A stretch of 64,000 bases of DNA. It comes from an uncultured Bacteroidota bacterium. Its GTDB lineage: Bacteria > Bacteroidota > Bacteroidia > Chitinophagales > Chitinophagaceae. Below, in pieces: positions 30,771 through 33,387 of this stretch. How positions within the stretch are numbered: the stretch's first letter is position 1; each line of letters begins with the position of its first letter. The notes beneath the pieces are model-generated. The model did not search any database, had not been told where the DNA came from, and was given only the letters and a program-made list of their open reading frames with translations. The stretch is taken from positions 1-64,000 of the forward strand of contig CAILLK010000028.1 in the NCBI GenBank assembly GCA_903835005.1. The letters are read 5' to 3'. Made by a program: the position numbers and the translations under genes.

Positions 30771-30928
30771 TCCTGCCGGAATGCAATTATCTTATCTCAC
30801 AAATTGGTTTCTTCAGGACTGATCATTCTTTGATGTCTTAGTTAATAGGTTTCAGCAGTTATTTTTAATCTTCCCATTTTGTTTTAATTTGTTAAAGAAA
30901 ACTTAAAGCATTTCTTGTCTTTTGTATT

Positions 30929-30944
30929 TACGAAATTATTCGTA
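30929..30944. promoter_or_regulatory. BlaI-type operator O1
   Basis: Near-perfect dyad TACGAAATTATTCGTA. It overlaps the first two bases of the -7 element at 30943-30950. Its partner O2 differs by one base in the centre and lies exactly 24 bases away, centre to centre. Spacing by about two helical turns favours cooperative binding of a dimeric repressor such as the BlaI-like protein encoded just downstream. Confidence 0.75.
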
Positions 30945-30950
30945 GGTTTG
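30943..30950 (+). promoter_or_regulatory. Promoter -7 element for the BlaI/M56 operon
   Basis: TAGGTTTG, with TTG at 30922-30924 as the -33 box (18-base spacer). The element lies between the two operators, so a bound repressor would cover it. Confidence 0.7.
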
Positions 30951-30952
30951 TG

Positions 30953-30968
30953 TACGAAATAATTCGTA
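30953..30968. promoter_or_regulatory. BlaI-type operator O2
   Basis: Dyad TACGAAATAATTCGTA, placed at the expected transcription start and just upstream of the BlaI-like gene. See O1 for spacing and meaning. Confidence 0.75.
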
Positions 30969-30995: not shown

Positions 30996-31385
30996 ATGAC
31001 CACAACAATAAAACCAACCGACAGCGAACTGGAAATACTCAACATTCTATGGGACAAAGGCCCCAGTACCGTGCGCGATGTGCATGAAGTGCTGGAGAAG
31101 AGCAAGGATGCCGGCTATACTACCACACTTAAACTCATGCAGATAATGCACGACAAGGGCCTGCTGAAAAGAGACGCCAGCAACAAAAGCCATGTATATA
31201 CCGCTATTGTATCGCAGGAAAAAACCCAGGGCCAACTGGTGAAACGCATGATAGATAATGTATTTAACGGTTCGGCATCGCAATTGGTGATGCAAGCCTT
31301 GGGGCACCACAAAGCCAATAAAGAAGAACTGGAAGAGATAAAGAAGTACCTGGATGAAATGGAAAAGAAGACAAACAATTCTTAA
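30996..31385 (+). CDS. BlaI/MecI-family transcriptional repressor
   Basis: A 129-residue winged-helix repressor that would bind the two dyads upstream and be inactivated by its partner protease. Motifs fit the family: PTDSELEILNILWDKGPSTV (residues 7-26) opens the first helices, YTTTLKLMQIMHDKGLLKRD (39-58) is the recognition helix and wing, and the C-terminal part after GQLVKRMIDNVFNGSASQL is the dimerisation region where BlaI is normally cleaved. It is followed after 19 bases by the M56 peptidase gene, forming an autoregulated operon. What it controls beyond itself cannot be told from this window. Confidence 0.92.
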   Translation: MTTTIKPTDSELEILNILWDKGPSTVRDVHEVLEKSKDAGYTTTLKLMQIMHDKGLLKRDASNKSHVYTAIVSQEKTQGQLVKRMIDNVFNGSASQLVMQALGHHKANKEELEEIKKYLDEMEKKTNNS

Positions 31386-31404: not shown

Positions 31405-33252
31405 ATGAGCACGATCTCACAAACAACCACAATACTGGCTAATTCAATGGCGTGGGCGCTGATACATTCGCTCTGGCAGGGTTTACTGCTGTTTGCCCTT
31501 TTATTTGTACTGCTTAAAACTGTTCCCGGCTTCGGCGTCAGGATTAGATACTATCTATCCTTCGGGGCTTTTACCGCATTATTTGTGTGGTTTGGGGAAA
31601 CGTGGGTAAGTCAGTTTGAACGGTTGAAGGGGATGTTTGAACTAAATTACGGAAGCATGGATGTGGCACCCATGCAAATAATCATCAGCGATATTAAACC
31701 TGTGAGTGAGCCGGTGGCGGTCGTTTCAGCGCCATCATTCAGCAGCCAGTTGCTGCATTTTATTGAGCAGAATGTACCCGTAATCATGACCATCTATATG
31801 GCAGGGCTGGGATTTATGCTGTTGCGGTTTGTGATTAATATTTATTCCTTAAGGGCATTAAGAACACAGGGCATCAGTGGGCCTGACAACCAATGGAATG
31901 AGCTGGTAGAAGTGTGGAGCAGGCGGTTTGCCATCAGCAGGCCGGTGAAATTATTTCTTTCTGCAAAGATCAATGTGCCGATGATGCTGGGAACCATGAA
32001 ACCGGTGATACTGCTGCCCATAGCCACAATTAACCACCTCACTACAGAACAGGTAGAAACCATATTGCTGCACGAACTGGTGCATATAAAGCGCCATGAC
32101 TACCTTTTGAATATGCTGCAGACCGCCGGAGAAACCATATTGTTCTTCAATCCATTTGTATGGCTGATATCCCAAATCATAAGGCGGCACCGGGAGGATT
32201 GCTGCGATGATCTGGTGGTGGACAATACTGCAAGCCCGATGCAATATGCACAGGCACTCGTAATGCTTGAGCAGGGCAGGAGAGAGGAGCAACAACTGGC
32301 GCTGGCGGCTACCGGGAATAAGAATCAGTTGCTGGACCGGATAAAAAGGATTGTTGAAATGAAGAAGAACAGGCCGGGGTATGGGCAATTGAGTATTCTA
32401 ATGGTTGCCTTTATTGTGCTGGCTATTATTGTGGCCATGTGCACATTTACGCCTTCAATGGCACAGAAGGCTAAAGGAGATAAGAGCGATACAGCTAAGA
32501 AGAAGCCATTAATTGAAAACAAGCTTACCACAAACGATTGTGGTAGTAAGGAAACATCCATCCAGAATGAAAATAAACTGCAGAAACAGGTAAAGGCATT
32601 TGGCAGTAAGGAGGAAATGAAAAGGATAGATGATTCGATTGCTGAGGAGCAGCGTTACCTTGCTGCCTTGCATAATCCCGATACCACAAAAATCTCTATT
32701 ACCACTAAAGATGGCACTAATATAGAAGCAGCCTTATTTGATGATCCATTAAAAATGAACCGGATTTTTAAAAGTGTTCATTCTGTTTTTAAAAAACAAC
32801 TTAATGATGAAGAATTGAGGACAGAGTTAGATAAAGCAATACGAACAGCATATAAAGACATCAGCAGCCAGCAATTGGATATACTGATCGTGAAAACAAT
32901 TGATAAGTTCATTTCTAGGCAAAGGCAAAATGATCTTAAGAGTGAAGGGTTTATGAAAATGATTGCAGCATATAAAAAAGACTATTTAGATAGCTTTAAA
33001 ATTACAATCAATGCAGAAAATGACACATTCCAGGAAATTAACCATATAAAAAATTTGTGTCAATGCAACTTTACTTATCCGGTCATGTATGTAGCACAGA
33101 AGGTTAATGGCCAATTGTATCTGAATGAGAAAAAGCAGTCCAAAGCATTATTGGATAAATATGGAAGTTCTTTTCAAGAAGGAAAGGGAATTAAAACTTA
33201 TTTTTTGGGAAATAGTAAGAATATGGTAGATATGGTAGATAAAGGGTATTAA
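31405..33252 (+). CDS. BlaR1/MecR1-like M56 metallopeptidase sensor without a penicillin-binding domain
   Basis: A 615-residue membrane protease paired with the BlaI repressor. Membrane helices occur near residues 12-40, 45-65, 110-140 and 330-350. The zinc site is HELVH (about 223-227, in ILLHELVHIKRHDY). A downstream Glu lies in RRHREDCCDDLVV. After the last helix, where BlaR1 carries a beta-lactam-binding sensor domain, this protein has about 260 residues of charged, Lys-rich sequence with no SxxK or other penicillin-binding signature. It is therefore not a beta-lactam receptor. The signal it senses is unknown. Confidence 0.85.
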   Translation: MSTISQTTTILANSMAWALIHSLWQGLLLFALLFVLLKTVPGFGVRIRYYLSFGAFTALFVWFGETWVSQFERLKGMFELNYGSMDVAPMQIIISDIKPVSEPVAVVSAPSFSSQLLHFIEQNVPVIMTIYMAGLGFMLLRFVINIYSLRALRTQGISGPDNQWNELVEVWSRRFAISRPVKLFLSAKINVPMMLGTMKPVILLPIATINHLTTEQVETILLHELVHIKRHDYLLNMLQTAGETILFFNPFVWLISQIIRRHREDCCDDLVVDNTASPMQYAQALVMLEQGRREEQQLALAATGNKNQLLDRIKRIVEMKKNRPGYGQLSILMVAFIVLAIIVAMCTFTPSMAQKAKGDKSDTAKKKPLIENKLTTNDCGSKETSIQNENKLQKQVKAFGSKEEMKRIDDSIAEEQRYLAALHNPDTTKISITTKDGTNIEAALFDDPLKMNRIFKSVHSVFKKQLNDEELRTELDKAIRTAYKDISSQQLDILIVKTIDKFISRQRQNDLKSEGFMKMIAAYKKDYLDSFKITINAENDTFQEINHIKNLCQCNFTYPVMYVAQKVNGQLYLNEKKQSKALLDKYGSSFQEGKGIKTYFLGNSKNMVDMVDKGY

Positions 33253-33362: not shown

Positions 33363-33387
33363 GAGCCGGACAATTAAAATCCGGCTC
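33363..33387. terminator. Bidirectional terminator between the M56 gene and yidC
   Basis: A perfect 8-bp stem GAGCCGGA/TCCGGCTC with a 9-base loop. A-rich sequence precedes it and T-rich sequence follows, so it can end both convergent transcripts. Confidence 0.75.

Follow-up and report, generated by a model that had tools for sequence, protein, structure and literature searches.

BlaI-M56 pairs, in which a gene for a BlaI-type repressor adjoins one for an M56 membrane metalloprotease, are common in Bacteroidota. In the portions of the literature that our search covered, we found no paper on the operators or targets of Bacteroidota BlaI-M56 pairs. One such pair lies in the DNA analysed here, a 64,000-nucleotide stretch from an uncultured member of the Chitinophagaceae (hereafter the window), and it raises the questions of which DNA elements control the pair and to what the resulting circuit responds.

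Two dyads flank the promoter of a blaI-M56 pair

A sequence-only reading of the window had described two near-identical 16-bp dyads, 24 bases apart, around the blaI-M56 promoter, with a -7 element between them that partly overlaps the first dyad and with TTG 18 bases upstream. This anatomy can be read directly from the window:

30921-30924, + strand: TTTG resembling a -33 element, with 18 bases from TTG to the TA of the -7 element
30929-30944, no strand assigned: putative operator 1, TACGAAATTATTCGTA, between -33 and -7, its final TA common to the -7 element
30943-30950, + strand: TAGGTTTG, which fits the -7 consensus of the primary sigma factor in Bacteroidota, between the dyads
30953-30968, no strand assigned: putative operator 2, TACGAAATAATTCGTA, covering the expected transcription start
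30996-31385, + strand: blaI-like repressor gene, 129 aa, PF03965 Penicillinase_R (Pfam E 3.7e-29)
31405-33252, + strand: M56 (BlaR1-type) membrane metalloprotease gene, 615 aa, PF05569 (E 5.5e-35)
32071-32085, + strand: HELVH zinc motif of the M56 protein, an in-frame HExxH

Both dyads read TACGAANNNNTTCGTA; they are spaced 24 bp start to start with a gap of 8 bp, and 27 bp separate operator 2 from the blaI ATG at 30996. The overlap with the first dyad consists of the shared TA of TAGGTTTG. The available text of PMC7366714 gives TAnnTTTG at -7 together with TTTG near -33 as the Bacteroidota promoter consensus, and TAGGTTTG and TTTG are both present here. A sigma-70 scan flagged no promoter at the site, as expected for a Bacteroidota promoter. 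In the gap where M56 and yidC converge, a terminator-like hairpin at 33363-33387 was called on the minus strand; it would serve yidC and was therefore left out of the operon parts.

The repressor belongs to PF03965 (101.8 bits against a cut-off of 22.6) and is related by sequence to the solved MecI (1okr, 1sd6) and BlaI (1sd4) proteins. Its neighbour belongs to PF05569 (121.4 bits against 31), carries HELVH and adjoins blaI; it scored below every NCBIfam BlaR1/MecR1 cut-off (NF000326, 111.2 bits against 400). As in the staphylococcal BlaI-BlaR1 and MecI-MecR1 systems, a BlaI/MecI repressor thus adjoins an M56 membrane protease, and the dyads share with the staphylococcal ones a length of 16 bp and outer TA..TA ends. 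The two arrangements differ in that here blaI and M56 follow one another on the same strand, the periplasmic part is a different one, no beta-lactam sensor was found among the Pfam domains of the M56 protein (no penicillin-binding domain) and no beta-lactamase gene was seen at the locus. They also differ in the half-site, TACGA here as against the BlaI/MecI operator core TACA/TGTA given in the available text of PMC7253601, and neither dyad matches the BlaI/CopY core TACANNTGTA. The same source describes two palindromic sites upstream of the operon controlled by CopY of Enterococcus hirae, a repressor of the same superfamily (PMC7253601). CopY/CopR resembles the present system in that pairing but not in the consensus RNYKACANNYGTMRNY, which is not matched here, nor in the CXC metal motif, which is absent from the 129-aa repressor; the latter also scored below the CopY copper repressor model (TIGR02698, 58.8 bits against a cut-off of 121.95).

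Both dyads are conserved at related blaI loci

Relatives of the repressor were collected from named genomes, and the best 80 of 242, 64-95% identical, were retained. Upstream sequence was available for 79 of these loci (all except L037), giving 80 aligned rows with the window included. Both dyads recur in 79/79 related loci, and twins accompany blaI in named genera such as Pedobacter, Parapedobacter, Chitinophaga and Taibaiella. Across the 80 rows the dyads are 24 bp apart in 77, 25 bp in two and 23 bp in one, and the 24 core bases contain no mismatch in 75 rows and one mismatch in five. Between the dyads, TAnnTTTG is found in 74/80 rows and TAnnTT in all 80; TTG stands 17-19 bases upstream of the -7 TA in 69/80 loci. 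Conservation falls off directly outside the dyads and promoter elements, and in the flanks of the 80 loci (540,725 positions, leaving aside the 160 bp that precede blaI) no site was found at up to one mismatch. The sample is biased to close relatives and rich in Pedobacter, and L050 and L055 represent one duplicated region, so the 80 loci, themselves the best 80 of 242, do not amount to 80 independent events.

Inverted repeats that are transcribed could form hairpins, and the conserved element might then be a feature of the leader RNA, a hairpin or attenuator, rather than an operator. Across the 80 rows the half-sites are fixed and each dyad varies in its four central bases, operator 1 lies between -33 and -7 and hence outside the transcript from this promoter, and no Rfam match was obtained, all of which makes an RNA element barely credible compared with a pair of operators bound by protein.

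Among the 26 nearest blaI orthologues of a further genome set, 25 carry one or more exact copies of TACGA-N6-TCGTA in the 200 bp before the gene, the remaining orthologue (L180) having no site at all. Exact pairs precede only 6 of the 26, and many blaI genes in genomes where the periplasmic tail of M56 is split off (see below) retain just one good site. When position was ignored, the exact motif occurred 51 times in 60 family genomes and the reversed pattern likewise 51 times (summed by hand); mere counting thus reveals nothing of a regulon, while position and pairing do carry a signal. In long Pedobacter contigs the blaI-M56 pair often lies ~4-8 kb from a contig end (L049, L051, L054, L059, L071 and others), an arrangement that a long repeat such as an rRNA operon, conserved in the neighbourhood, might produce.

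Paralogous repressors are associated with different dyads

The genome containing the window has five PF03965 genes, and no TACGA dyads were found upstream of the four other blaI paralogues. Two paralogues (L019 and L020) are preceded by AACTA-N6-TAGTT dyads 25 bp apart around TACCTTTG and TACATTTG, respectively (read by eye). The same layout with another half-site would insulate the circuits from each other, and the contrast of ACGA with ACTA half-sites suggests a way in which a single genome could keep its paralogous BlaI circuits separate. The proteins also differ in the recognition-helix region, which we take to be the DNA-contacting part of BlaI: it reads YTTTLKLMQIM in the window's repressor and HKNTVATILKTL in L019 and L020. 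Both dyads, the distance between them and the intervening promoter are all conserved, and the paralogues have different dyads; these two facts support the earlier proposal that the dyads are operators of the adjacent BlaI.

A second source of TACGAA twins bears on this assignment. In a genus that we guess from its sequences to be Hymenobacter-like, twins spaced by 24 bp occur in 3 of 26 genomes (L103, L226 and L227, at 1501-1540 in each), and all three lie between a MarR gene and a gene for a CarboxypepD_reg/Plug outer-membrane receptor. These twins may be MarR operators that arose by convergence, or they may mark one more target of BlaI, and a 24-bp twin was accordingly rejected as a signature of BlaI only. 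Identical twins beside MarR genes in three of three cases are what one would expect if the dyads at blaI-M56 belonged to a different regulator, perhaps one of the MarR family, acting from elsewhere in the genome. Against such a regulator, the twins travel with blaI in 80 loci across named genera, and the dyads of the paralogues keep the layout while changing the sequence, which is what a dedicated site for each BlaI would produce. We therefore consider control by a foreign regulator very improbable and retain the adjacent BlaI as the likely ligand of the dyads. A second BlaI clade (L221, L224, L225) has TACGAA-N4-TTCCTA or its mirror upstream, beside M56 proteins that carry the tail.

The blaI-M56 operon is the sole target found in the window's genome

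The motif had also been put forward as a means of finding the regulon. We searched the whole genome (5,896,925 bases in 163 contigs), using the reversed pattern as control. Exact TACGAA-N4-TTCGTA occurs twice, in the window as in the genome as a whole; both copies stand at the blaI promoter, and the control gave no exact copy, so that the random scatter which would have counted against the motif is absent at zero mismatches. The looser core TACGA-N6-TCGTA added one genome copy, inside an open frame (control, two). Four sites have one mismatch, three of them inside open frames (L003, L005, L006) and one where two frames converge, between their 3' ends (L004). With two mismatches allowed, 131 matches compare with 335 for the control, and degenerate copies are therefore not enriched. 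No second target was found in this genome among the exact, looser-core and one-mismatch sites; the blaI-M56 operon is the sole target found there. A broad regulon was rejected for this genome. As a guide to the regulon the motif thus led to blaI-M56 only in its own genome, and to a second gene in related genera, which encodes the periplasmic part of M56 as a standalone protein.

The periplasmic part of M56 is encoded separately in other genera

The relevant parts of the window's M56 protein are:

32356-33249, + strand: last membrane helix and periplasmic part of M56, a standalone protein in other genera
33025-33249, + strand: C-terminal tail module of M56, the sole tail match in its own genome

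Several exact motif copies in the 60 family genomes precede genes for secreted proteins that end like the window's M56. These standalone proteins are membrane-anchored and align to M56 model positions ~310-605, that is, to the last helix and the periplasmic part. A tail profile of 22 rows, one of which is a standalone protein, matched in 37 of the 60 family genomes. Among 18 standalone loci with complete upstream sequence, all 18 have a site at up to one mismatch and 16 have a pair; of 33 such sites in the 57,385 bp of these loci, 32 fall in the upstream stretches.

A broader search matched the tail in 130 of 244 genomes at E <=1e-9. From it a later set of 68 loci was assembled, comprising every match with an open frame of 240-351 aa whose genome was not among the first 60, together with L228 from a separate search; the genera of some of these genomes are also represented in the first set. 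Within a fixed 200 bp before the guessed start, a site was found in 62/68 loci and the reversed pattern in 0/68. Pairs were present in 54/68, spaced by 23 bp in 28, 22 bp in 24 and 24 bp in two. Five of the six misses proved on inspection to have a pair near the gene (67/68): in L257 it lies ~0.3 kb upstream, and in the other four the guessed start was misplaced, too deep inside the gene or too far outside it. No site was found near the tail gene of L314, which is a second copy in its genome. Elsewhere in these loci, 125,678 positions contain 13 sites, ten of which are the pairs of the five rescued misses.

The tail is carried on an M56 protein with HExxH in 22 genomes, and no tail match of standalone size (240-351 aa) was found in these at E <=1e-9; G415 and G420 have weaker tail matches on small frames without sites. 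Conversely, 15 genomes have a standalone gene together with an M56 beside the blaI orthologue (frames of 498-715 aa) that gives no tail match. Two exceptions involve paralogous systems: in G444 a standalone gene coexists with a tailed M56 that adjoins a second blaI, and G436 has a blaI-M56-tail operon of a second type. The tail thus comes in two arrangements, as part of the protease, which is the case in the window, or on a gene of its own behind the same operator. Most M56 proteins of Pedobacter have another C-terminal end, so the circuit itself can do without the tail module. No site accompanies the weak tail matches in L216, L218 and L219. In L231 and L234 the tail occurs on short single-helix proteins of other families, which by eye look like anti-sigma-type proteins and have no TACGA sites, and in L220 (284-3736) the M56 of a second blaI pair has about five tandem tail modules in a 1150-aa frame.

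A model for autorepression and release

On this evidence we propose, at a probability of roughly 0.9, that the dyads are paired BlaI operators at BlaI's own promoter, that BlaI bound to both would repress blaI-M56, and that M56 would relieve the repression. Autorepression is what the anatomy of operators and promoter predicts. One BlaI dimer would sit between -33 and -7, overlapping the -7 element, and a second over the start point; bound at both dyads, the dimers would exclude RNA polymerase and shut the promoter. Sites 24 bp apart lie on different faces of the helix (~2.3 turns), which makes simple occlusion likelier than a continuous filament. A periplasmic signal would then activate M56 through its periplasmic part, and the activated protease would inactivate BlaI, as BlaR1 does in staphylococci, and open the promoter; output of the operon would climb until BlaI shut the promoter again. 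Where the periplasmic part has a gene of its own that these operators also precede, the circuit would control the supply of its own periplasmic partner.

The protease step is the part of the model most exposed to an alternative, namely that BlaI represses the operon and M56 spares it, derepression coming about through a ligand or another protease. Staphylococcal BlaI is cleaved at N101-F102, a pair that aligns with Q100-A101 of the window's BlaI, and this difference, like the lack of any matched beta-lactam sensor domain, would fit such a scheme. It is harder to reconcile with the in-frame HExxH and M56 fold, with the conserved blaI-M56 pairing and with QALG, which is invariant at the aligned scissile position in 16/16 aligned BlaI proteins. 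We regard this alternative as unlikely, albeit the most serious of those considered, and favour release of BlaI repression by M56.

The tail module occurs on membrane pyrophosphatases

The structure of the tail is predicted with confidence, that of the whole periplasmic part poorly (mean pLDDT 56.6). The model of a tail homologue 23% identical to the window's tail (L028; mean pLDDT 89.8) has the order alpha-beta-beta-alpha-beta-beta. Tails of three proteins gave no convincing coverage in Pfam at E <=1, only low-complexity coiled-coil matches below the cut-offs, and a Foldseek search of the PDB gave 0 of 302 matches at E <=0.001 (best E 0.37).

In 11 of 16 blaI loci from a wider set, a membrane H+-pyrophosphatase gene (PF03030) precedes blaI on its strand at a distance of up to ~3 kb, and in eight of these 11 no frame longer than 300 aa intervenes between it and blaI; no such gene was found in the window or the 80 relative loci. 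In nine genomes the C-terminus of a membrane H+-pyrophosphatase is itself the tail module (L209-L215, L223, L237), an end that we take to be periplasmic, and three of these tailed enzymes lie beside blaI-M56. The operator ties the protease to a module that elsewhere stands alone or forms the end of a proton pump.

Tentatively, then, these genes may belong to an undescribed envelope circuit of Bacteroidota, a doubtful reading in which a small periplasmic module is common to M56, to a BlaI-repressed standalone copy of the protease's anchor and periplasmic part, and in some genera to the pyrophosphatase encoded near blaI, and in which the circuit would monitor the envelope or the pumping of ions, not beta-lactams. 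The free copy would act as a feedback partner, competing with the protease or presenting the signal to it; in the window's lineage this partner would be fused into the protease, and the circuit would close on itself. The twin operators point to a small, apparently unstudied signalling circuit, their conserved position supplies a testable regulon for a common type of gene pair, and what BlaR1-like proteases without a beta-lactam sensor sense becomes directly testable. A BlaI regulator with targets outside beta-lactam resistance has a parallel in mycobacteria, where, according to the available text of PMC12565901, BlaI (Rv1846c) represses Rv1303, a gene co-transcribed with ATP synthase genes. 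That case differs in phylum, and the link to an energy enzyme is here a genomic one, made by the pyrophosphatase genes near blaI and by the tail module.
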